From: Blautia faecicola
GTDB taxonomy: Bacteria; Bacillota; Clostridia; Lachnospirales; Lachnospiraceae
NCBI RefSeq assembly: GCF_004123145.1
Contig: NZ_SDKC01000001.1
Location: 89,501 to 153,500, forward strand
Reading direction: 5' to 3'
Length of the DNA: 64,000 nucleotides
Shown here: piece after piece, positions 52,932 to 64,000 of the stretch
How positions within the stretch are numbered: the first letter of the stretch is position 1
Layout: every line of letters begins with the position of its first letter
Made by a program: the position numbers and the translations under genes
The notes under the pieces: generated by a model
The model's database searches: none
The model's input: the letters and a program-made list of their open reading frames with translations, nothing else
What the model was told of the DNA's origin: nothing

Positions 52932-52960
52932 AAATTACATAGTTAGTACTTATTAGCATA

Positions 52961-53012
52961 ACAGGTCGTACAGATAAGGGAGAAGATCTTTAATCTGTGC
53001 GATCTGTTTTTT
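52961..53012 (+). terminator. Terminator of feoAB
   Basis: ACAGGTCGTACAGAT (52961-52975) pairs with ATCTGTGCGATCTGT (52993-53007), T run to 53011. Confidence 0.88.
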
Positions 53013-53084
53013 ACATGGAAAATTATATAAGAGAAACTAAAAAGAGGAGAGTTGTAATAAGCTACAGGAAATAGATTTATATTC

Positions 53085-53114
53085 TTGTAAATGGGAAGGA
53101 GTCGATGATATACT
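53085..53114 (+). promoter_or_regulatory. Candidate promoter of the methyltransferase gene
   Basis: TTGTAA (53085-53090), 18-bp spacer, TATACT (53109-53114), 52 bp before the start codon. Confidence 0.55.
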
Positions 53115-53165
53115 TTTGTAAAGTAAGATAGAAATGTTAAACAGCTGATGAAGAGAGGGTATTAA

Positions 53166-53726
53166 GTGTATGATAAGAGACCTTATCAACCAATAGATCA
53201 AACACCTTCAAGATTCCTGGTTGATAATTTAAAATTGGTAGATATATCGGATAAACCTATTCTGGATGTTGCTTGCGGATATGGAAGAAATGGAGGATAC
53301 TTGGCAAAAAACAATCATAGAGTTGTGTTTATAGATAAAGATATTGAGTGCTTGAGATATATCAAAAATGGTGGAAAGCTAAGTGAGCAAGGGCACGTGG
53401 ATACAAGAAATGTCTATGCGTTATATAAGAATCTCGATGAGGGGAAACTTTCTTTTCCGAATGATTCAACAGGCGGAGTGATAGATATACACTATTATAA
53501 TCCGTTGTTGATCGATGAATTAATAAGAGTATTAGATAAGGGTGGATTTTTTTGTTTTGAATCAATCAGTGCAAGAGGGAAAAATGTTTACGAATTACCA
53601 GACTACCACTTTATTAAAGACAAGTTGAAAAATTTCAAAATTATAAGCTATGTTGAGAGAAAAGTTAATCCAGAGGAACTTGGCAAATCGGTAATGAAGA
53701 TTTTTGCAATAAAACAATATAGTTGA
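53166..53726 (+). CDS. Class I SAM-dependent methyltransferase
   Basis: A 186-residue protein with a Rossmann methyltransferase core: ILDVACGYGRNGGYLAKNNH (motif I), FIDKDIECLRYI (acidic ribose-binding end), and late strands GVIDIHYYNPLLIDELIRVL. The start is GTG at 53166 after AGAGAGGG. The substrate is unknown. It marks the start of the AT-rich region; it could be part of the acquired segment but is separated from the Hxs operon by a promoter and terminator. Confidence 0.85.
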   Translation: MYDKRPYQPIDQTPSRFLVDNLKLVDISDKPILDVACGYGRNGGYLAKNNHRVVFIDKDIECLRYIKNGGKLSEQGHVDTRNVYALYKNLDEGKLSFPNDSTGGVIDIHYYNPLLIDELIRVLDKGGFFCFESISARGKNVYELPDYHFIKDKLKNFKIISYVERKVNPEELGKSVMKIFAIKQYS

Positions 53727-53751
53727 TTAATTTTACTTATACTTGTATAAT
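53723..53751 (+). promoter_or_regulatory. Promoter of the Hxs operon
   Basis: TTGATT (53723-53728, over the methyltransferase stop codon), 17-bp spacer, perfect TATAAT (53746-53751). Confidence 0.8.
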
Positions 53752-53800
53752 ATATGTAGTGCTCAAACAATATAGAGCCGACTTTTAGTAAAATGATGAG

Positions 53801-53830
53801 GAGCATGCCTGGGTGGGGTATGCTCTTTTT
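53801..53830 (+). terminator. Intrinsic terminator in the Hxs leader, possible attenuator
   Basis: GAGCATGCC (53801-53809) pairs with GGTATGCTC (53817-53825), followed by TTTTT. It lies about 45-75 nt after the predicted transcription start and 64 bp before the first Hxs gene. Confidence 0.7.
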
Positions 53831-53893
53831 GAATAGAAATTAATTTATAAAAATTAATAAAGAAGTTCGGAAGAATAGTGAGGAATAATATTT

Positions 53894-54259
53894 ATGAGAC
53901 AACTAAAATATAATAGGGAACTTTATTCGAAAATTGCACTTATAAAGAGTGCCTATAATTTTACAGATAGAGCCTATATACATCTTGATGCTGATAGAGA
54001 TTATTATTATGTTTCGTTAAGTAAAAAAGAGGGAAAGCAGGAAGTCACTGACGAAGAATTTGAAAATGAAATTTTAGCGCAGAGTGCTCGTCATGAAATT
54101 TATTTGCAAACCAAAAATATACGTGAGCTTATGCTTGCCAGGGCAGTCGCAACAAGTGTGGTTGCAGCAGGAGATGAAGAGTTAGAATCCGATAGTGAGA
54201 TTGCACAGGAATTTAGTGAAGATGAAATATTAAAGGATTGGTTTGATGCTGATGAATAA
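53894..54259 (+). CDS. hxsD: His-Xaa-Ser system protein HxsD
   Basis: A 121-residue protein that matches the HxsD pattern as I know it: an opening YNRELYSKIALIKSAYNFTD, a beta hairpin (YYYVSLSKKEG), then EEFENEILAQSARHEIYLQT and NIRELMLARAVATSV. The last 35 residues are acidic. HxsD accompanies HxsB and HxsC in all predicted Hxs systems and may be the substrate-recognition partner, by analogy with PqqD-like domains; that is inference. AGGA precedes the ATG. First gene of a coupled operon. Confidence 0.82.
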   Translation: MRQLKYNRELYSKIALIKSAYNFTDRAYIHLDADRDYYYVSLSKKEGKQEVTDEEFENEILAQSARHEIYLQTKNIRELMLARAVATSVVAAGDEELESDSEIAQEFSEDEILKDWFDADE

Positions 54260-54458
54260 GTCGATGTTAAATATGGATATTTATTCTGTAGAGAATATAA
54301 AGAAAACGTGCAATGCATATAAAGATTTTGCAAGAATCAAGATTAAGAGAAATTATAATTATATGGAACTGACTTTTGATAGATGCAAGTATGATACAGA
54401 TATTACGATAAAAGAATTTGAAAATTATTTGATTAATATAGAGAATATGAAAAAATGA
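54246..54458 (+). CDS. Second, shorter HxsD-like protein
   Basis: About 70 residues, overlapping hxsD by 14 bases and the next gene by four. Its text IYSVENIKKTCNAYKDFARI-KIKRNYNYMELTFDRC-ITIKEFENYLINIE follows the first half of HxsD (helix with Ala/Tyr, hairpin, EFEN helix) but stops before the RELML helix. It looks like a truncated HxsD paralogue. ATG 54246 has AAAGGA eight bases upstream; 54252 is the alternative. No other family recognised. Confidence 0.6.
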   Translation: MLMNKSMLNMDIYSVENIKKTCNAYKDFARIKIKRNYNYMELTFDRCKYDTDITIKEFENYLINIENMKK

Positions 54459-55480
54459 TAATTATAGAAATTATATTTATAGTAGCATTATTGTCGTTAG
54501 GAATAATAGCATCCATAACTGACCTTAAAAATGGCAGAGTTTATAATAAAATTTTATTGATATATGCTTTGTTGGGATGCGTACTGGATACATTCTATTA
54601 TGGTTATTTTGCGAGAGATTTGTTTGTACTTTATATATTTAATATAGGAATTTTGGGTGTAATTAGCCTGATTTTGTTTTATACACATTCATTTGCTGGA
54701 GGAGACTGTAAATTAACAGTAGTGATGGCTATTTTGTATCCGGCAAATTGCTATCTGATATATGGGACAACAGATATAACTTTGTATTTTACATTATGTT
54801 TGGCAATTTTATATGGATATCTATACTTGTTAGGATTTTCTTTATATTCGCTGGTTAAGGGAAGGGTGAGCCTTTCTAAAAAATATGTTAAGGGATATTT
54901 AAAGACCTTCCTGAAATCTTTTGTGTCTGCCTCAGGATATATATGTTTGATAAATCTTCTTTTCATCATTATAGGTTTGCAAGGAGTATATATCAACGAA
55001 TGGATCATTAGAATTATATGTATGTTATCAGCATGGATAATTGGTAAAAAGAACAGGTTAAAAAAATGGCAGATAGTTGTTGGAATTTACTGCATTGATA
55101 TAGTCATTGGATTGATATTAGGATTTATGCCGTTTTCGTTTAATCCAGAAAATTACATTTTAGTAATACTACTGTTACTTTGTCAGATGACAATTCGAAC
55201 AAGCTTATATCAGGAAGTTAAAGTATGTGATCTGAAAAAAGGAATGATATTATCAAGTATTTCATCAATACTTATGCAGAATTCCAGAGTACGAGGTCTT
55301 CCACCTGTATCTACAGAGGATTTGAAAAGTAGACTGACCGAAGAACAAATAAATAGTATTAATCGATGGGCAGGGAGCAGAAAGATATTGACTGTAACAG
55401 TTGTTAGAAAAATTCCGTTTGCAATATTTATATTTGCCGGATTTTTGAGTTATTTTATTATATGGAGTGTGGTTAGATGA
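54455..55480 (+). CDS. A24 prepilin-peptidase-like membrane protease
   Basis: A 341-residue protein with about eight membrane helices. It carries the two aspartates of A24 aspartic proteases: Asp23 in ASITDLKNGRVYNK and Asp84 in FAGGDCKLTV (GxxD/GGD motif). After the membrane core it has a cytosolic loop with GLPPVSTEDLKSRLTEEQI and a last helix. Prepilin peptidases cut leaders at the start of a hydrophobic helix. No pilin gene is visible here; its likely substrate in the operon is HxsA. Coupled by ATGA overlaps on both sides. Confidence 0.85.
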   Translation: MIIIEIIFIVALLSLGIIASITDLKNGRVYNKILLIYALLGCVLDTFYYGYFARDLFVLYIFNIGILGVISLILFYTHSFAGGDCKLTVVMAILYPANCYLIYGTTDITLYFTLCLAILYGYLYLLGFSLYSLVKGRVSLSKKYVKGYLKTFLKSFVSASGYICLINLLFIIIGLQGVYINEWIIRIICMLSAWIIGKKNRLKKWQIVVGIYCIDIVIGLILGFMPFSFNPENYILVILLLLCQMTIRTSLYQEVKVCDLKKGMILSSISSILMQNSRVRGLPPVSTEDLKSRLTEEQINSINRWAGSRKILTVTVVRKIPFAIFIFAGFLSYFIIWSVVR

Positions 55481-56583
55481 TTACAAAGCTGGAGAAATAT
55501 AGTGGAAAATATAAAATAGTATCTTTAGCTTTTGATCAGGTATCAAGAGATGATTTACTTGAAGATAATATAGATCTACTGTATATATCCGAGAAGGATA
55601 TAAAATTATATCCGGAAAATATTGTGGTATCAGAAGATAAAGATGTAATTGATAAACTCGGACATGTACATAATTATGATGTATATGAACTTTGGGAAAA
55701 TGGAAAATTGTCGGAATATTATGATGACAGTTCTTTGGATAATTATTTTTTTGTAACCGCAAAATGCAATTCTAATTGTATTATGTGTCCTTCACCTGAT
55801 GTTTCTCGTCAGAAGGGTGGAAGTACCAGCGTGGATACTCTCATAGAAATAGCAAAACATATACCGGCAGATGCACCGCACCTTACAATCACAGGTGGAG
55901 AGCCATTTCTGATAGGCCCCGATATATTCCGATTTTTGAAATTCCTTCGTGATAAATTCGAGTATACAGAATTTCTATTTTTAACGAATGGAAGAATATT
56001 TGCTATCGAATCATATGTACAAAGATTTATGGAAAATGCGCCGGAAAATAGTATTGTCGCAATACCTGTTCATGGATCTACGGCAGCAACACATGATATG
56101 ATAACGCAAACAAAGGGAAGTTTTGAACAGACTATACTTGGAATAAAAAGATTGTTGAAAGCAGGAATTCATATTGAAGTAAGGATTGTTGTAAGTGGAA
56201 TGAATAGCAATGATATTAAAAATATTGCTTGGTTGATTGCTCGGGAAATTCCCAAAGTAGATTATGTCAGCATTATGGCAATGGAGATGACCGGAAGTGC
56301 AAGGATTAATCGGGATAAAGTTTGGATACCGTATGGAAAAGCTGCATTAGCAGCAGAAGAGGCAGTATTGGTGCTGATGGAAAATGGAATTGATGTGAAA
56401 TTATATAATTTTCCATTATGTGTTGTCAAAAAGGAATTTTGGACTCTGTGTGAAAAAAGTATATCTCCAGGTAAAGTAAGATATGCTGAAAAATGTGAAA
56501 AATGTAAAATGAAAAATGCCTGCGGTGGGGTATTTGCAGGAACGATTTCAATGGAAAAGGGAGAATTAAGTGCGATTATATGA
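55477..56583 (+). CDS. hxsC: His-Xaa-Ser system radical SAM maturase HxsC
   Basis: A 368-residue radical SAM enzyme. The [4Fe-4S]-SAM cluster motif CNSNCIMC has Cys97, Cys101 and Cys104; LTITGGEPF is the SAM-binding GGE motif. A C-terminal Cys set (KCEKCKMKNACGGVF) probably holds an auxiliary cluster, or is structural. The N-terminal 90 residues are a non-radical-SAM domain as in HxsC. Coupled with the A24 protease and HxsB genes through ATGA overlaps. It is expected to modify the His-Xaa-Ser repeats; the chemistry is unknown. Confidence 0.85.
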   Translation: MITKLEKYSGKYKIVSLAFDQVSRDDLLEDNIDLLYISEKDIKLYPENIVVSEDKDVIDKLGHVHNYDVYELWENGKLSEYYDDSSLDNYFFVTAKCNSNCIMCPSPDVSRQKGGSTSVDTLIEIAKHIPADAPHLTITGGEPFLIGPDIFRFLKFLRDKFEYTEFLFLTNGRIFAIESYVQRFMENAPENSIVAIPVHGSTAATHDMITQTKGSFEQTILGIKRLLKAGIHIEVRIVVSGMNSNDIKNIAWLIAREIPKVDYVSIMAMEMTGSARINRDKVWIPYGKAALAAEEAVLVLMENGIDVKLYNFPLCVVKKEFWTLCEKSISPGKVRYAEKCEKCKMKNACGGVFAGTISMEKGELSAII

Positions 56584-57971
56584 AACTGAATTATTTTAAT
56601 TTTAAGCAGTTTGGTGATTCTGTTTTAATGACAAATGATTTTGGAAAGTATGTATTTGTAAGAAAAGAAGATTTTCAAAGTATACTGTCGTTAAATGTTG
56701 ACAGGGAATCAGAATTATACAAGCTGCTTATCGAGAGAAAAATGATATATGATGAATCTGATTTGGAGTATTCATCAGTAAACAAGTATGCGCTGAGAGG
56801 AATAAAAGGGCATGTAAATGTTGCAACATCATTACATATTTTTGTGGTAACTACGGTATGCAATATGGGCTGCGTCTATTGTCAAGCGAATAATGGCGTG
56901 GAGTGTTCACACCTTATTATGAATAAAGAGATGGCGGAAAGAGCGGTAGATATAGCATTGCAGTCACCGGAAAGGTCATTATGTTTTGAATTCCAGGGAG
57001 GAGAGCCGTTAGTTAATTTTGAAATTATAAAACATATAGTGCAATATGCAGAAATGCACAAGGGAAAGCATGATATAGCTTATACGGTGGTAACCAATCT
57101 GACATTACTGAATGATGAAATGTTGGAACTTTTCACACAATATTGTTTCGGAATATCGACCTCAATAGATGGAAATGAACTGGTACATAATAATAACCGG
57201 CCATATGCTAATGGGGATGGAACATTTAAAAAGGTTATTGATTCGGTTGAACGAGTAAGAAAAGCAGGATTACAGATTGGAGCCATAGAAACAACCACGA
57301 GGTTCTCACTCGATTTTCCGAAAGAAATTGTCCATACGTATATAGATATGGGATTTGAAAGTATTTTTATAAGACCGTTAACTCCATTAGGAAAAGCGGC
57401 AAAGAGCTGGGGAAAAATAGGATATACTTCTGAAGAATTTATAGAATTTTATCAGAAAGCATTAGATGAACTGATTGAGATAAACAAAAAGGGAAGGTTT
57501 ATCAAGGAAGATCATGCAGCGATTCTATTGAGAAGAATAAGAGGCGATTTCATGAATTATATGGAATTGCGTTCGCCGTGTGGGGCAGGTGTTGGGCAGT
57601 TAGCATATTATGCAGACGGCAATATTTTTACATGTGATGAGGGCAGAATGTTGCATGAGATGGGACAAAGTACATTTCAGTTGGGAAATGTGTATAGCAG
57701 TAACTACACAGATCTGATAAATAACAACGTGTGTAAGACTGTATGTGCATCAAGTGTGCTGGAAACAATTCCAACATGTTGTGATTGTGTATACCAGCCA
57801 TATTGTGGAACCTGTCCAGTTGTGAACTATGCACTCGATGGAGATGTTATAGAAAAACAGCCGCGAGGATATAAATGCAGGATTTATTCTGGAATATTAG
57901 ATTATCTATTTTCAAAATTTTATAAAAATGATATGGAAACAATGAGGATATTAAATTCATGGAGTGATTAA
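56580..57971 (+). CDS. hxsB: His-Xaa-Ser system radical SAM maturase HxsB
   Basis: A 463-residue radical SAM/SPASM enzyme. The motif is CNMGCVYCQA (Cys94, 98, 101), followed by FEFQGGEPLVNF. The C-terminal SPASM domain is Cys-rich: CGAGVGQLAYYADGNIFTCD, GRMLHEMG, CCDCVYQPYCGTCPVVN and a final YKC, which should bind two auxiliary clusters. The CGAG...GNIFTCDEGRML pattern is typical of HxsB. It begins with ATGA inside the hxsC stop. Confidence 0.88.
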   Translation: MKLNYFNFKQFGDSVLMTNDFGKYVFVRKEDFQSILSLNVDRESELYKLLIERKMIYDESDLEYSSVNKYALRGIKGHVNVATSLHIFVVTTVCNMGCVYCQANNGVECSHLIMNKEMAERAVDIALQSPERSLCFEFQGGEPLVNFEIIKHIVQYAEMHKGKHDIAYTVVTNLTLLNDEMLELFTQYCFGISTSIDGNELVHNNNRPYANGDGTFKKVIDSVERVRKAGLQIGAIETTTRFSLDFPKEIVHTYIDMGFESIFIRPLTPLGKAAKSWGKIGYTSEEFIEFYQKALDELIEINKKGRFIKEDHAAILLRRIRGDFMNYMELRSPCGAGVGQLAYYADGNIFTCDEGRMLHEMGQSTFQLGNVYSSNYTDLINNNVCKTVCASSVLETIPTCCDCVYQPYCGTCPVVNYALDGDVIEKQPRGYKCRIYSGILDYLFSKFYKNDMETMRILNSWSD

Positions 57972-57972
57972 G

Positions 57973-59337
57973 ATGGCAGAGTTAGAACAAGATAAAATAT
58001 CCGAAGAGGATGTGAAAAAGTTAGAAAATAACAATGTAGTAGACCCTATAATATCTCCAGAAGAAGAGTATAATAAGGCCCTTAAACGAAGAAAAAGGAT
58101 ATCTGTGTGGGGACTGGTTCTTCTGATTGCGACGGAGATAACAATTACTGGAGGACTGGGAGAGAGAATAAATGCTGATCATTTACAAAATAGGGTTGTA
58201 AGAGAACATGAGATGCGGTCATCCGGGCAAATTCAGCTTACAAAAGGTTTGTATGAGGGAGAAACAGATTTTGGCTATTTTTCCGGAAAGGGTCAATTTT
58301 CATTTAACACTGGGGCTGAGTATACAGGAAATTGGAAGCAGAACCAGCTAGATGGAAAAGGCACGTTGCGTGTTCCAAATGAAGGTACATATGAAGGAAA
58401 ATTTACATCATCAAAAAAGAGTGGAAAGGGAATTTTTACATGGGATGATGGAGCTGTTTATGAAGGTGAATGGAAAAATGACAAGATGTGTGGTCAGGGT
58501 GTATATACAACGCCAGAGGGAATAAATTTTTCCGGAACCTTTAAAGATAATTCTTTTGATGATGGAAAATGTACTTTTGAAAATGATACAGGAAGTTATA
58601 GCTTAACTTATAAATCCGGTGTCATTGAAAAGGCATCTATAGAATATTCGGATGGTTCCAAATATGTAGGAGAATGTGATGCAAAAGAGTTAAATGGTAC
58701 AGGAAAATTAACTTTTGTGAGTGGAGACATTTATGAAGGAAATTTTCAGAATGGCTGTAGAAACGGACAAGGAGTATATACATGGGCATCAGGCGATAAA
58801 TATGATGGAGAATGGGAAACTGATCAGATGGAAGGATCAGGGACATATACATATTCGAATGGAGGCTACGCGAGTGGTACTTTTGATAAAAATACTTTCG
58901 TGAACGGCAGCTACCATATAGAAAACGATTTTGGTAATTATACATTTACAATTACCGATGGAGAGCCAACGGATGTCGAGATGTCACTGGCAAATGGAAC
59001 TACTTATAGCGGAGCTATGAGTGATGGAAAATTATCAGGGCAGGCACAGATAAAATACAGTAATGAAGATCAATATAATGGAAATGTTTCTAATGGTCAA
59101 AAATCAGGTCAGGGAACTTATACATGGACAAGTGGTGCTTCTTACGAGGGAAACTGGTCTGAAGATAAAATGAATGGAGATGGAACTTATTTTTATCCTT
59201 CCGATGAAAAGGGATATAAGCTTACAGGTTCTTTTAAAAACGGCAAACCAAATGGAGAATGCCAGTATTATACAGATTCGTCAACCCATTATCAGACGGA
59301 TTGGGCGAATGGAAAGTGTGTGAAAATATATGAATAA
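57973..59337 (+). CDS. Membrane-anchored MORN-repeat protein
   Basis: 454 residues. An acidic cytosolic N-terminus of about 42 residues, a basic KRRKR stop signal and one membrane helix (about residues 44-60) are followed by 13 or so MORN repeats (YEGEWKNDKMCGQGVYTW type) that fill the rest. If the basic residues mark the inside, all repeats lie outside the membrane. MORN repeats bind membranes or proteins. ATG 57973, one base after the hxsB stop, has GGAG eight bases upstream. Its stop overlaps the hxsA start, so it is probably part of the same machine. I know of no described link between MORN proteins and Hxs. Confidence 0.82.
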   Translation: MAELEQDKISEEDVKKLENNNVVDPIISPEEEYNKALKRRKRISVWGLVLLIATEITITGGLGERINADHLQNRVVREHEMRSSGQIQLTKGLYEGETDFGYFSGKGQFSFNTGAEYTGNWKQNQLDGKGTLRVPNEGTYEGKFTSSKKSGKGIFTWDDGAVYEGEWKNDKMCGQGVYTTPEGINFSGTFKDNSFDDGKCTFENDTGSYSLTYKSGVIEKASIEYSDGSKYVGECDAKELNGTGKLTFVSGDIYEGNFQNGCRNGQGVYTWASGDKYDGEWETDQMEGSGTYTYSNGGYASGTFDKNTFVNGSYHIENDFGNYTFTITDGEPTDVEMSLANGTTYSGAMSDGKLSGQAQIKYSNEDQYNGNVSNGQKSGQGTYTWTSGASYEGNWSEDKMNGDGTYFYPSDEKGYKLTGSFKNGKPNGECQYYTDSSTHYQTDWANGKCVKIYE

Positions 59338-59926
59338 TATGGATGAATTATTTCCGCAATTGCAAAAAAGTATAGAAGATTTAATAGAAGATGAAGAGGG
59401 AAATATTCCCGGTCATAAGTTACTTATGCTGGGTACAATGATTGTTGTATTGGGAAGCTTAATGCAAGTGAATGTTTTTGCAGGACATAGATCGCATAGC
59501 TCTCACAGATCACATAGTTCGCATAGTTCTGGATCAAGCGGGCATGGAAATCATGGAAGTCATGAGAGTCATTCAAGCCATGTGTCACATTCGGATCATA
59601 GCTCACATTCGAATACGCATTCCAGTCATGCGAGTCATACGTCACACTCAAATACATCATCACATTCTAATTCATCATATAGTTCAGAGGGTGATGTTAC
59701 ATATAGTGCACCAGCAGCATCATCTGTGCCTACAATAAAGACACCTGCTGTTACTGCGACAGCAGATACATTTAAGCTGCCGGATGTAAACCAGAATATA
59801 GAACTTCCGAATGGAACACCGGCATCAAGTATTATGCCGTCATTGGCAGTGCCGGCATCGAGTACAGCAACACGAATTGATACTGGAAAAATTCATCAGC
59901 CGTCTACAACAGATGAGATCGAATAG
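59330..59926 (+). CDS. hxsA: His-Xaa-Ser repeat protein HxsA, predicted modified substrate
   Basis: 198 residues. Residues 1-27 are a hydrophilic acidic leader (QKSIEDLIEDEEGNIPG), 29-50 a hydrophobic segment ending NVFA-G, then 53-114 a repeat tract with 18 histidines, 13 of them exact His-Xaa-Ser and the other five followed at +2 by Asn or Asp, mostly at three-residue spacing. A Thr/Ser/Pro-rich tail of 80 residues follows. VFA before Gly52 fits signal peptidase I; PG-HKLL at 28/29 could instead fit an A24-type cut. It overlaps the MORN gene by eight bases. Such repeat proteins are the predicted HxsB/HxsC substrates. Confidence 0.85.
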   Translation: MNNMDELFPQLQKSIEDLIEDEEGNIPGHKLLMLGTMIVVLGSLMQVNVFAGHRSHSSHRSHSSHSSGSSGHGNHGSHESHSSHVSHSDHSSHSNTHSSHASHTSHSNTSSHSNSSYSSEGDVTYSAPAASSVPTIKTPAVTATADTFKLPDVNQNIELPNGTPASSIMPSLAVPASSTATRIDTGKIHQPSTTDEIE

Positions 59927-59946
59927 TGGGGGTAGGAGTACTTTAG

Positions 59947-61053
59947 ATGGAGATATTGAATAAAATTTTTTCTGGTGGGAAACCGAAGGACAATATAATT
60001 AACTGTGAAGATAAATATTTGCAAGAGGCGCAGGAAGCAGTAGAGATTGTTAATAATGGTGTCGAAAATGGTTCTTTCTCTGAAATGATAGAACAGCTTG
60101 ATAAACTACCAAGCGTCAGTGCTAATAGAGATAAGTATGTTTTTAAAAATCACCGTTCTGTATTAAGTATAGTAGCTATGGTAGTGTGTGCGTTGCTGAC
60201 GATTTCGTGTTTACGTTATATACCAATTTGTATTGGAACTATAGTTTATTCCGGTAAATATAGGATGTTTGCTGGTATTGGTATCATTATATCGTTATTC
60301 ATCATTGTAATTAATATTTTTGTTATTGTAAAAGAAGTTTATCAAATACAGTTTAGCAATAGGTATGACATATATGTGAAAGATTTGCGTTTTAAAAATA
60401 TTGAAATTGTAGACGATTTGGCAGTGTATGCAAAAGTAAAATCTGAAACAGTAATAAAAGACCTGAATAAAGCTATGCGAATGAAATTGATTCCACAGGG
60501 ACATTTTGGAAGAGATAATTTGATTTTCATTGTTTCTGACGAAGTGTATGGGAAATATAAAGAGAAGCAGGCTGTATATGATAGATATTATAAAAAACAG
60601 GTTGAAGAACGACTGAGAATGAAAGAGCGTACAAAAGAAATACAGAGCATTATGGATCAGGGCCAGGGATATATTGATAAAATACATGAGAGCAATAATA
60701 TAATTAAGGACAAGACTATTTCCCAAAAACTTGATCGTATGGAAAGTGTAGTGTCGACAATTTTTCATGAAGTTGATATCAATCCACAAAACGCAGATAA
60801 ACTTGGAATGTTTATGAATTATTATTTGCCAACAACAGAGAAATTACTTGAAACATATATAGAGATTGATGAAAAACAGGTGAAGGGAACAAGTCTGGAA
60901 AAAACAAAAAAAGACATAGATGATGCTATTGATAAAATTATAGATTCATTTGAAGGACTGTTGGATAAATTTTATCAGCAAAAAGAACTTGATATAGCAA
61001 CAGACATTTCAGCGATGGAGATCCTTATGAAACAAGATGGGCTTATAGAATAA
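59947..61053 (+). CDS. XpaC-like membrane protein
   Basis: A 368-residue protein of the XpaC (5-bromo-4-chloroindolyl phosphate hydrolysis) family. After 65 hydrophilic residues come two membrane helices (about 70-120), then a long helical coiled-coil C-terminus (MKERTKEIQSIMDQGQGYID...NYYLPTTEKLLETYIEI). XpaC is usually encoded next to TelA; here two TelA-family genes follow. The biochemical role of XpaC is not known; the hydrolase name comes from a phenotype. TAGGAG precedes the ATG. Confidence 0.82.
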   Translation: MEILNKIFSGGKPKDNIINCEDKYLQEAQEAVEIVNNGVENGSFSEMIEQLDKLPSVSANRDKYVFKNHRSVLSIVAMVVCALLTISCLRYIPICIGTIVYSGKYRMFAGIGIIISLFIIVINIFVIVKEVYQIQFSNRYDIYVKDLRFKNIEIVDDLAVYAKVKSETVIKDLNKAMRMKLIPQGHFGRDNLIFIVSDEVYGKYKEKQAVYDRYYKKQVEERLRMKERTKEIQSIMDQGQGYIDKIHESNNIIKDKTISQKLDRMESVVSTIFHEVDINPQNADKLGMFMNYYLPTTEKLLETYIEIDEKQVKGTSLEKTKKDIDDAIDKIIDSFEGLLDKFYQQKELDIATDISAMEILMKQDGLIE

Positions 61054-61078
61054 GTTAACAACAGATGAGGTGATACGT

Positions 61079-61972
61079 TTGGAGAGGGAAGATAATGATA
61101 TAAAAATCTTTTCGCAGAACAAGCTGATTGTGGGAAATGCAGACAATATATTGACATTTGGCTGTGAAGACCAACAGCGGTTGAGAGAATATTCAGCAAG
61201 AATTTCCTATCAACTGATTGATAATAGTGGGGAATTGGAATATCTAATTCAAGATATTCTTAATGAACTTAATGATTTTCAAAATCTGGTCGAGAAAAAA
61301 CAAATTTTTCCTCTGAAAAATAATGAAAAGAAGAGAGAGAATTTAATGAAAAAATACAATTCAGTTCTTGTTTATATGGATAAAATGGAACTGGCTCTGA
61401 AATTGCAAGAAGTACAGCTGATTAAAGACTCAAAAATGTTTGAAGAACTGGACAGACAAATGGAGTGTACAATGGCTGGATTGCAGAAAAATATATCTTA
61501 TGGGAAAGATGTGATGAGACAGAAACCAGGTAATCTGGTTTCTGAAGATATTATCAATTGGTATGAAAGACTTTCAAAGAAAATTGAGGATTTGGAGATG
61601 TCTTACACAGTAGCGATACAAACCGGAACTCAGATAAGGTTAATGCTGAGAAATAACACACAACTAATAGATAAAATTGTGAAAACAATATCTGAAACAA
61701 TTCCAATATGGCGAAATCAAATTACTATTCTTTTAGGAATAGAAAAACTGAATCGAAATCTGGAAGTTCAGAATAAAGTAGTGGAAATTACTCAGAAGTA
61801 TATAACAAAAGAGAAAACAATTCTTAGGAAAAGTCATAAAAGGCAAAGAGAATTCAGCACTGAAAAATTACTGTGGACAAATGAGACTTTAAAAAAGGCA
61901 TTAGATGACCTTGAACTGGTGGAAAAGTGTGATGGGAATATCAGAACAGAACTATGCAGCCTTTTAAGATAA
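61079..61972 (+). CDS. TelA-like protein, shortened paralogue
   Basis: About 297 residues, all helical. The second half parallels the following TelA: QTGTQIRLMLRNNTQLIDKI and ETIPIWRNQITILLGIEKLN correspond to QSAPQVRMLQNNDRELLDKL and NTIPLWRNQLVLSLGIEHTS. It lacks the first 100 or so residues of a normal TelA. I use TTG 61079 (GAGGTGA five bases upstream); GTG 61070 is possible. A partner role for the full-length TelA is inference. Confidence 0.75.
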   Translation: MEREDNDIKIFSQNKLIVGNADNILTFGCEDQQRLREYSARISYQLIDNSGELEYLIQDILNELNDFQNLVEKKQIFPLKNNEKKRENLMKKYNSVLVYMDKMELALKLQEVQLIKDSKMFEELDRQMECTMAGLQKNISYGKDVMRQKPGNLVSEDIINWYERLSKKIEDLEMSYTVAIQTGTQIRLMLRNNTQLIDKIVKTISETIPIWRNQITILLGIEKLNRNLEVQNKVVEITQKYITKEKTILRKSHKRQREFSTEKLLWTNETLKKALDDLELVEKCDGNIRTELCSLLR

Positions 61973-61990
61973 CAAAACGATGGGGGTATT

Positions 61991-63154
61991 ATGGAAGAAG
62001 AAAAGATACATTTGACATTGAATTCAGGACAAAAATTTACGGAGACATTTCTAGATAGTACGCCTACACTGCAGAGTACAGTTGAAAAAGCAGAATCAAA
62101 TTATTCTGCCGGAACTATTGATGAAAGTATGCTTTCTGAAGAAGAAAAGAAAATGGTAGAGCAGTTCGCAAGTGAAATTGATATTGAAAACGTGGATCAG
62201 ATTGTAAATTACGGACTAAAAGCACAAACTAACATATCTGAATTCTCGGCTACGATATTAAAAAAAGTAAAAACATATGATTTGGGAGAAGTAGGGATTT
62301 CATTAAAAGAACTGACTGTGGCATTAGATGCGACAACAGAACCAGAGAAAAAGGGAATTTTAGGAATTTTTCAAAAGGCAAAAAGAGGAATTGGATCTAT
62401 AAGAGCCAATTATGCCAAGGCAGAAAGTAATGTTGACAGGATAGAAAAGGACCTGATTAAACATAGAGATGTATTGGGGCAAGATATTTCTATGTATCAG
62501 CAAATGTATGAGCTGAATATGCAATATTATAAAGAATTAACTATGTATATAATAGCTGGTAAGAAGGCACTTGATCAGGCAAAACACACAAAACTTAAAC
62601 AATTAAAAGAGAATGCTGAAAACTCGGATAAACAGGAGGATGTACAGGTATATCGTGATTATGAGGATCTTTGTCATAGATTCGAAAAGAAATTATCAGA
62701 CTTGGAGTTAACAAGAGTTATTTCAATCCAATCAGCACCTCAGGTACGTATGCTTCAAAATAACGATAGAGAATTACTTGATAAACTGCAGTCATCATTA
62801 GCAAATACGATACCTCTTTGGAGAAATCAATTAGTACTTTCACTGGGAATAGAGCATACAAGCAGAGCTTTAGCTGCACAGGGAGCATTGTCTGAAAAAA
62901 CAAATGAACTGTTAAGAAAGAATTCTGAGACATTGAAAATGGCAACGGTTGAAACGGCAAAGCAATCAGAAAAAGCGATTGTGGATATAGAGACATTAAA
63001 ACAGTGTAACAGAGATTTGATTGTCTCGATAAACGAGGTTGTAAAGATTCATGAGCAGGGAACGGTTCAGAGAGCGAAAACACAAGAAGAATTGGTTAAA
63101 ATAGAAGAGGAATTGAAACAGGCAATGCTTAAAGCCGGAAAGAACAGAAGATAG
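61991..63154 (+). CDS. telA: TelA family (toxic anion resistance) protein
   Basis: A 387-residue TelA/KlaA-family protein with the full family architecture: an early region QIVNYGLKAQTNISEFSATI, a helical core with FQKAKRGIGSIRANYAKAES, and the conserved SAPQVRMLQNNDRELLDKLQ and IPLWRNQLVLSLG. The family was named from tellurite resistance but is widespread with unknown molecular role, often beside XpaC or TerD-like proteins. Strong RBS GGGGGT before the ATG. Confidence 0.9.
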   Translation: MEEEKIHLTLNSGQKFTETFLDSTPTLQSTVEKAESNYSAGTIDESMLSEEEKKMVEQFASEIDIENVDQIVNYGLKAQTNISEFSATILKKVKTYDLGEVGISLKELTVALDATTEPEKKGILGIFQKAKRGIGSIRANYAKAESNVDRIEKDLIKHRDVLGQDISMYQQMYELNMQYYKELTMYIIAGKKALDQAKHTKLKQLKENAENSDKQEDVQVYRDYEDLCHRFEKKLSDLELTRVISIQSAPQVRMLQNNDRELLDKLQSSLANTIPLWRNQLVLSLGIEHTSRALAAQGALSEKTNELLRKNSETLKMATVETAKQSEKAIVDIETLKQCNRDLIVSINEVVKIHEQGTVQRAKTQEELVKIEEELKQAMLKAGKNRR

Positions 63155-63189
63155 AATGAATATATTCTATTTGGAGAAAGTGAGAAATC

Positions 63190-63771
63190 ATGCATAGAAA
63201 ACTTAAAATTACATTTAATGCACCTGTAACATTAGGTTTTGTATTAATCTGCTTTATTGCTACCTTATTGGGAAGTATTTCTGGCGGAAAAATCACACAG
63301 AAAGTTTTTATGACATATCATTCTTCATTAACAAATCCGATGACATATTTTCGATTTATTACGCATATATTTGGGCATTCAGGATGGGAGCACTTTATCG
63401 GAAATGCATCTTATTTGTTGTTGCTTGGGCCGATGCTAGAGGAAAAATATGGTTCTAAAGAATGGGTTGAAGTGATTGGAATGACTGCCGTTGTTACCGG
63501 ATTAATGAATTATATATTCTTTTGGAATACCGGACTGTGTGGTGCTAGTGGGGTGGTATTTGCTTTTATTATACTGGCATCATTTACAAGTTTTAGAGAG
63601 GGCGAGATTCCATTAACTTTTATTTTAGCTGCTGTTTTGTTTATAGGGCAGCAGATATATGAAGGGATTATGGTAAGGGATAATATTTCAAATACGGCTC
63701 ATATTACAGGAGGAATAGTTGGGGCTGTAATAGGATATGGATCGAATAGAAAATCCAAATATGATTTGTGA
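63190..63771 (+). CDS. Rhomboid-family intramembrane serine protease
   Basis: A 193-residue protein with six membrane helices. It has the rhomboid HxxWxHFIGN motif (His63, His68, Asn72), the catalytic GAS120G and His171 in AHITGG. It cleaves membrane proteins within or near the lipid bilayer. As the last gene of the Hxs operon it may process an operon product, such as HxsA or the MORN protein; this is inference. GGAGAAAG precedes the ATG. After it 63772-63967 holds no gene and no clear terminator. Confidence 0.88.
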   Translation: MHRKLKITFNAPVTLGFVLICFIATLLGSISGGKITQKVFMTYHSSLTNPMTYFRFITHIFGHSGWEHFIGNASYLLLLGPMLEEKYGSKEWVEVIGMTAVVTGLMNYIFFWNTGLCGASGVVFAFIILASFTSFREGEIPLTFILAAVLFIGQQIYEGIMVRDNISNTAHITGGIVGAVIGYGSNRKSKYDL

Positions 63772-63881
63772 CTCATCAAAATTATTTCTACATAAAGGAC
63801 GTATAGAAGATGGACTAAAAATACCGATAGGAGTGCACTTGTAGATAGAAAAGAAATAACGAAGAATATAGGCAATCTCTG

Positions 63882-63911
63882 TTGACCACAGAACCGTACA
63901 ACAGGTAAAAT
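63882..63911 (+). promoter_or_regulatory. Sigma A promoter of the gene at 63968
   Basis: TTGACC (63882-63887), 18-bp spacer, TAAAAT (63906-63911). Confidence 0.65.
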
Positions 63912-63967
63912 CATAGTAGGATTTCCATAAAGATGATGGAAAAATAATAAAAGAGAAGGTAAGCAAA

Positions 63968-64000
63968 ATGGATAAATTACTGTATGGGGTGGCGTACTAT
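63968..64000 (+). CDS. Start of a probable GH42 beta-galactosidase, cut by the window end
   Basis: Only 11 codons are visible (MDKLLYGVAYY). The text LLYGVAYY is the usual opening of bacterial GH42 beta-galactosidases. GAGAAGG precedes the ATG, with a promoter 57 bases upstream. Assignment from so few residues is tentative. Confidence 0.5.
   Translation, partial: MDKLLYGVAYY

Follow-up and report, generated by a model that had tools for sequence, protein, structure and literature searches.

The closest described relatives of the locus analysed here are the His-Xaa-Ser (H-x-S) peptide systems and the Tad pilus. The classical HxsA-HxsB-HxsC-HxsD system (NCBIfam TIGR03976-79) is said to go back to Haft and Basu. 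HxsB and HxsC are mentioned as putative maturases in PMC9062424, and no experimental account of the products of Hxs enzymes was found in the open-access literature, subscription papers lying outside the scope of that search. With respect to pili, PMC3244431 states that prepilin peptidases cleave at a Gly or Ala located ahead of a hydrophobic stretch, that Gram-positive TadV peptidases lack a large portion of the PilD N-terminal region and that pilins follow the expression [GAS]-[uncharged]4-[DE]. The titles and abstract starts surveyed in the open-access literature contained no link between a prepilin peptidase and the maturation of peptides by radical S-adenosylmethionine (SAM) enzymes or of ribosomally synthesised and post-translationally modified peptides (RiPPs). 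The present work concerns an operon in a 64,000-nucleotide stretch of contig NZ_SDKC01000001.1 of Blautia faecicola, referred to as the window. This operon is best explained as an H-x-S system of the HxsA3 type, carried by an acquired island, whose precursor would be cut by the system's own prepilin-type peptidase; a probability of about 0.6 is assigned to this explanation.

The HxsA3 cassette and its conserved partners

The operon comprises eleven plus-strand open reading frames (ORFs), spanning 53894..63771 in the ORF listing of the window:

53894..54259, plus strand, HxsD (TIGR03976, 80.1 bits, cut-off 50)
54243..54458, plus strand, HxsD-like protein (NF038315, 62.8 bits, cut-off 41)
54455..55480, plus strand, A24-like (prepilin-type) aspartic peptidase with about 7 membrane helices (PF01478, hydropathy)
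55477..56583, plus strand, HxsC radical SAM maturase (TIGR03977, 323.6 bits, cut-off 267.9)
56580..57971, plus strand, HxsB radical SAM/SPASM maturase (TIGR03978, 536.3 bits, cut-off 370)
57964..59337, plus strand, MORN-repeat protein with a single N-terminal membrane helix, residues 46-64 (PF02493 in 8 stretches, hydropathy)
59330..59926, plus strand, HxsA3 precursor (NF038309, 118.2 bits, cut-off 65)
59947..61053, plus strand, XpaC-type protein with two membrane helices (PF10112, 43.7 bits, cut-off 29.8; hydropathy)
61070..61972, plus strand, TelA family, divergent copy (PF05816, 106.8 bits, cut-off 30)
61991..63154, plus strand, TelA family (PF05816, 354.3 bits, cut-off 30)
63190..63771, plus strand, rhomboid protease (PF01694, 80.4 bits, cut-off 22.6)

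These coordinates bear out the eleven-gene plus-strand operon proposed in a first-pass annotation of the same DNA. Six of the ten junctions, namely all those between hxsD and hxsA3, show overlaps of 4-17 nt, a range wider than the 4-14 bases given earlier for most of the genes, and the remaining four, located after hxsA3, are gapped by 16-35 nt. The assignment to the Hxs systems was likewise confirmed: HxsB, HxsC, HxsD and an H-x-S precursor of a named type, HxsA3, all score above the NCBIfam cut-offs, and the two radical SAM enzymes recognised at first are HxsC and HxsB. The HxsD-like protein of the first-pass annotation is present, the number of HxsD-type genes being corrected to two, HxsD and HxsD-like. 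The MORN identity was recovered with Pfam and those of XpaC, TelA (two copies) and rhomboid with Pfam models above cut-off, and the rhomboid protein displays GASG and a conserved-looking His when read from its sequence. The PADLOC models returned no match for the MORN protein, XpaC or either TelA and only a weak match of HxsB to viperin (45.2 bits), as expected of a radical SAM enzyme. Comparison of HxsD with solved structures produced two matches, both at chance level.

The system is rare. HxsB scored above cut-off in four genomes each of the order (392 sampled), the family (397) and the class (391; one of these last four, G1132, is not an hxs locus). HxsA3 was found in 2 of 398 genomes of the phylum and, in further draws, in 1 of 200 (class of G534), 2 of 51 (order of G1377) and 4 of 92 (order of G1453). 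These draws of genomes overlap, and each contains its own centre genome. A set of 15 HxsA3 cassettes, recruited through HxsB or HxsA3 and never through A24, was assembled for comparison. It consists of the window, L049 (G915), L035 (CAMHAH010000018.1, the single locus returned by one scan of genome contigs), L040 (G320), L041 (G277), L042 (G249), L043 (G534), L051 (G1377), L124 (G1662), L052 (G1453), L125 (G1760), L126 (G1749), L127 (G1739), L060 (IMGVR_UViG_3300048598_000421) and L128 (MT837156.1, an unverified record entered as a bacteriophage clone from human faeces). The precursor scores above the NF038309 cut-off in all 15. Two HxsB-positive loci were left out of the count. L050 (G1052) was set aside as truncated, its 3.7 kb contig carrying only hxsC-hxsB and ending with no HxsA3 found downstream. 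L053 (G1132) was excluded as a non-hxs locus, with HxsB at 388.6 bits, a weak HxsC at 40.8 bits and no HxsD, HxsA3 or A24 in the available sequence. The latter region (L053:8288-16254), where two small peptides that we take to be Nif11-like lie near the HxsB-related maturase and the weak HxsC relative, is probably another peptide-modification system.

An A24-like gene is located immediately 5' of hxsC in every one of the 15 cassettes and a MORN gene immediately 5' of hxsA3 in 12 (it is missing from L035, L040 and L041), as anticipated by the expectation that these partners would accompany hxs genes in other genomes. HxsD is present in 14 cassettes, none being found in L060, and the HxsD-like gene in 8. 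Ten cassettes follow the order D-(D-like)-A24-C-B-(MORN)-A3; L052, L125, L126 and L127 are arranged as MORN-A3-D-A24-C-B, and L060 as MORN-A3-A24-C-B. That A24 and MORN retain their neighbours despite this rearrangement argues for function and not for hitchhiking. What stays together is A24, HxsC, HxsB and HxsA3; HxsD accompanies them almost without exception, and MORN usually does. In view of the conservation of A24 and MORN, the maturation and cleavage parts of what had been called a complete maturation, cleavage and envelope-anchoring unit are well founded.

As a protein, the A24 of the window is marginal against PF01478, at 24.6 bits for a cut-off of 26.5 (28.6 bits in a six-frame search). 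Asp23 and Gly83-Asp84-x-Lys86 (G-D-x-K), which contain the two presumed catalytic aspartates, are nevertheless invariant in all 14 aligned A24 proteins, and both motifs are visible by eye in L128. The cassette A24 exceeds the Pfam cut-off in 6 of 8 genomes searched and falls below it in G915 (23.1) and G534 (18.1). When the family profile was compared to solved structures, its sole relative was FlaK (3s0x_A, an A24B peptidase; E 0.061, residues 7-101), a match that is supportive but weak. Pairwise identities of A24 correlate with those of HxsB (r 0.85) and HxsC (0.82) almost as closely as those of HxsB and HxsC do with each other (0.88), over 91 non-independent pairs and without an unrelated control gene. 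No relatives of the window A24 were found in plasmids; the A24 alignment found none in viral contigs, missing L060 there, though the HxsB alignment retrieved it.

The HxsA3 protein of the window carries the leader EDEEG/NIPGHK (the slash follows the Gly of the predicted cut), a membrane helix at about residues 31-49 and then the H-x-S repeats, whose 13 triplets, overlapping one another, agree with the earlier count. A leader of the form [DE]-E-[ED]-[GA]/[NS]-[IV] precedes the helix in 15 of 15 HxsA3 proteins, with Gly at position -1 before the N-terminal hydrophobic stretch in 14 and Ala in one (L060).

The mechanism proposed from these elements can be summarized as follows. HxsA3 would be synthesised with a cytoplasmic leader ending in D/E-E-E-G, then a membrane helix, and with the H-x-S repeat at its C-terminus. 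The repeat would be modified in the cytoplasm by HxsB and HxsC, with the probable aid of HxsD and the HxsD-like protein, both the chemistry of the modification and its order relative to cleavage being presumed. Insertion of HxsA3 into the membrane would occur N-in/C-out, and the A24 of the operon would then cut after the Gly at the cytoplasmic face, as TadV does with Flp prepilins. The cut would strip off the maturase-binding leader and yield a membrane-held, modified, His-rich surface peptide, of which the membrane-anchored MORN protein may be a scaffold or partner. XpaC, TelA and rhomboid would constitute an optional envelope-related tail, proper to this strain. We give an even chance to the broader generalisation that HxsA3 systems are radical-SAM-modified membrane peptides with a prepilin-mimic precursor and a dedicated prepilin-type peptidase, displayed next to a MORN scaffold on the clostridial cell surface.

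The downstream tail and the island

The genes located 3' of hxsA3 were expected at first to accompany hxs genes elsewhere as well, and they do not: XpaC occurs in 2 of the 15 cassettes (the window and L049), and TelA and rhomboid in one each, counted over the sequence available around each cassette, which is short downstream in L035 (~3 kb) and L128 (~1 kb). The XpaC/TelA/rhomboid tail is local cargo and does not belong to the conserved hxs system, and the envelope-anchoring part of the unit proposed earlier is not well founded.

We lean slightly towards the view that two adjacent units are present, an hxs module (hxsD-hxsA3) and a separable XpaC-TelA-TelA-rhomboid envelope-stress cassette, which would share the island and perhaps a transcript. 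This view bears on the tail and does not conflict with the HxsA3 explanation. It is favoured by the scarcity of the tail genes, by junctions that overlap as far as hxsA3 and are gapped beyond, by a second XpaC-TelA pair elsewhere in the same genome (L097) and by the closest TelA relative seen (431 bits, in G277), which lies off the contig of the hxs locus of that genome, beside an XpaC-like gene and UvrD helicases. PMC12791056 reports that the susceptibility of a Listeria TelA mutant rises 4-fold to nisin and 2-fold to tellurite, an analogy that suggests envelope stress for the tail. Two observations count against separate units: the entire 11 kb form one low-GC island, and the XpaC proteins of the window and L049 are close (346.5 bits), each being encoded immediately 3' of hxsA3.

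The G277 region mentioned above (L114:8862-17467) contains the TelA gene, its weakly XpaC-like neighbour (25.7 bits), a pair of UvrD-type helicase genes that show GajB-like matches, and the gene of an 855-amino-acid protein to which Pfam gives no match at E 0.01; it may be a defence or stress locus.

Four of the 15 cassettes, from genomes of different families, carry an alternative module 3' of hxsA3 instead of a tail of the window type (L042:1348-9731, L043:1979-11807, L051:8226-17000 and L124:176-9695). By Pfam and NCBIfam names, it encodes a ClpB-like AAA ATPase, a protein kinase, an FHA/zinc-ribbon protein, a membrane protein of the DUF5050 type and a small, activase-like radical SAM protein, together with PP2C in 3 of the 4 modules. 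A protein of 255-281 amino acids and, in 3 of the 4, DUF4236 are also present. This looks like a phospho-signalling module.

The operon and the gene preceding it lie within the following element:

52932..63940, no strand, genomic island of ~11 kb with approximate ends (GC contrast; absent from the sister species G784)

The GC content falls from 0.489 in feoB to 0.332 in a methyltransferase gene upstream of the operon and 0.344 in the operon itself, and is back at 0.492 downstream. In the congener G784 the equivalent flanks lie ~170 bp apart, without the island, and are identical to those of the window at 97.9% over 3,103 nt on the left and 93.1% over ~16.8 kb on the right. Within the genus, HxsA3 was found in 1 of 5 genomes, the window's own. 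The simplest reading is that ~11 kb, including the methyltransferase gene, were acquired, the alternative being a loss in G784.

Proposed cleavage of the precursor and its alternatives

Classical hxs loci served as a contrast for the leader and its peptidase. HxsB matches occur in 338 plasmid records, 314 of them from Klebsiella, and in two phage records; 5 of the 338 were examined and both of the phage records, one being L128. Of the seven viral loci considered, six are classical in kind, L066 among them only loosely so. The 12 contrast loci include L066, counted as classical yet very divergent (end branch 3.55) and with no HxsD listed, and L065, cut at its 5' end. As a separate observation, hxs genes are found on the viral contigs or phage records L060, L061-L066, L128 and L129, among which is the Leptospira phage KF114877. 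The A24 and MORN profiles of cassette type matched none of the 12 classical loci over all available locus sequence. In nine classical precursors a linker separates an N-terminal hydrophobic stretch from the repeat that follows, and the acidic-Gly motif is present in none of them. In the HxsB tree, built without L128, the phage locus L129 and the cut L065, 14 A24 loci are split from 10 classical loci by a single branch with support of 100/99.

The frequency of the motif was further estimated on 674 other ORFs from 38 loci, after removal of ORFs containing H-S-S-H or H-S-T-H. Among those with an early membrane helix, 3 of 219 contain it (2 of 147 in a smaller run); all three are TadE/Flp prepilin-like and come from loci chosen for containing A24 genes. 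Fourteen HxsA3 proteins entered the same scan, where 12 scored with Gly and L060 with Ala, the start of the L052 protein having been placed too far upstream for it to be scored. Some Flp/TadE prepilin-like proteins encoded near other A24 genes of the same genomes carry a comparable leader, the sequences being EEESG/VGVVE (G915), WNEEDG/MGVVE (G320), KDDNAG/MGTIE (G277) and FRDENG/DAVIE (G249). Of 14 proteins encoded near such genes about 12 are prepilin-like, and a strict motif of two acids, one residue and Gly is present in 4 of these (G915, two in G320 and one in G249). A Flp-like ORF located just 5' of an A24 gene in G249 (L107:5884-6120) has the motif and no acid at +5.

Several observations weigh against cleavage by A24. 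The published pilin expression is fitted at the Gly by none of the 15 HxsA3 proteins, all of which lack an acid at +5, while Arg occupies +4 in 11 of 15 and Lys occupies +6 in 15 of 15. The Flp family is absent from the Pfam matches of the window HxsA3 and from the 25 of 43 Pfam matches listed for nine HxsA3 members (E<=10). Prepilins do not generally carry the acidic-Gly leader. After the helix, all 15 proteins have a sequence of the form [AVI]-x-[AG]-[GAK]-H, in which the last small position is Ala in 14 and Gly in L052; signal peptidase I could cut there. Scored as a protein, the A24 of the window lies under its Pfam cut-off. Finally, A24 and the leader type part on one branch of the HxsB tree, so that their association is stable but amounts to one event.

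The first alternative, which we consider unlikely, is that the D/E-E-E-G leader serves solely for recognition by HxsB, HxsC and HxsD. HxsA3 would then remain uncut at the Gly, and the A24-like protein would cut another substrate, such as the MORN protein, or have another membrane role. Maturase recognition motifs are common in RiPP leaders, the residues at +4 to +6 depart from the published expression as described above, and A24 and the leader type switch together on one branch only. However, classical HxsA precursors are served by related maturases and show the motif in 0 of 9 cases, the three MORN-less cassettes retain A24, and in the background the motif is confined to prepilin-like proteins (3 of 219).

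A somewhat less probable proposal holds that HxsA3 is an ordinary secreted peptide, cut by signal peptidase I at [AVI]-x-A just before the repeat, A24 at most clearing the leftover signal peptide. The constancy of [AVI]-x-[AG]-[GAK]-H between helix and repeat speaks in its favour, but it leaves the constant A24 gene and the acidic-Gly motif unexplained. Moreover, the repeat likewise starts at an x-A-x-H boundary in six of the nine classical precursors (L055, L057, L058, L059, L061 and L064), where this boundary lies far from the hydrophobic stretch and may mark the modified core instead of a signal-peptidase site.

Assembly of a pilus by the operon was rejected, as its genes include no assembly ATPase or platform protein. 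The lack of Glu at +5 in HxsA3 argues against ordinary pilus assembly too; the protein may undergo prepilin-type processing and still not be a pilin.

Upstream features and comparison with known systems

Three features precede the operon:

53166..53726, plus strand, class I SAM methyltransferase, upstream of the operon and inside the island (PF13649, 27.8 bits, cut-off 27)
53723..53751, plus strand, promoter-like site TTGATT-17-TATAAT (promoter scan, weak evidence)
53798..53828, plus strand, 13-bp hairpin and a T run 3' of it, separating the promoter-like site from hxsD (z -3.28, 139-nt stretch folded)

The low-GC methyltransferase gene shows weak TehB-like similarity, and the phmmer listings contain no relatives of it beside other cassettes. 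The single strong promoter assumed at first for the operon is weakly supported: the number of promoter-like sites in 53000-64000 is near chance (60 found for 55.2 expected), and the hairpin with its T run stands between the site and hxsD. This hairpin is not among the predictions of the terminator scan, and Rfam matched nothing across 50-64 kb, hairpin included. It could be the terminator of the methyltransferase gene or an attenuator.

Relative to the earlier description of this DNA, the analysis adds the prepilin-like leader of HxsA3, the boundary of the island and the alternative downstream module. The mature form of HxsA3 can be tested directly, given the predicted cut site, a dedicated peptidase with two named Asp residues and a product predicted to stay in the membrane. 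If the explanation is true, prepilin-type peptidases also serve RiPP-like maturation, A24 genes could be used as anchors in the search for new modified peptides, and HxsA3 systems stand at the junction of RiPP maturation and prepilin processing.

Four described systems can be compared to the locus. The XpaC-TelA pair of Firmicutes consists of the same families as the tail, which differs by an extra divergent TelA, a rhomboid gene and its location within an hxs operon. The TadV/Flp couple of the Tad pilus shares with the cassette an A24 peptidase without the PilD N-terminal domain and a small substrate with an N-terminal helix, preceded by acidic residues and then Gly. Unlike Flp prepilins, HxsA3 has no acid at +5 and does not match the published expression; unlike the Tad pilus, the operon contains no secretion ATPase or platform gene, and it encodes radical SAM maturases together with the substrate. 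The classical Hxs system has HxsB, HxsC, HxsD and an H-x-S repeat precursor in common with the locus. Its genes are, however, ordered D-B-C in the loci examined, or B-C where HxsD is unannotated, without A24 or MORN of cassette type, whereas the cassettes run D-(D-like)-A24-C-B-(MORN)-A3 or show a rearranged form of this order, and the classical precursors begin with a Sec-like or plain hydrophobic N-terminus in place of the acidic-Gly leader. The fourth is the HxsA3 family NF038309, to which all 15 precursors belong. The family name covers the peptide only, and the constant A24 partner, the frequent MORN partner and the prepilin-like leader are new relative to it.

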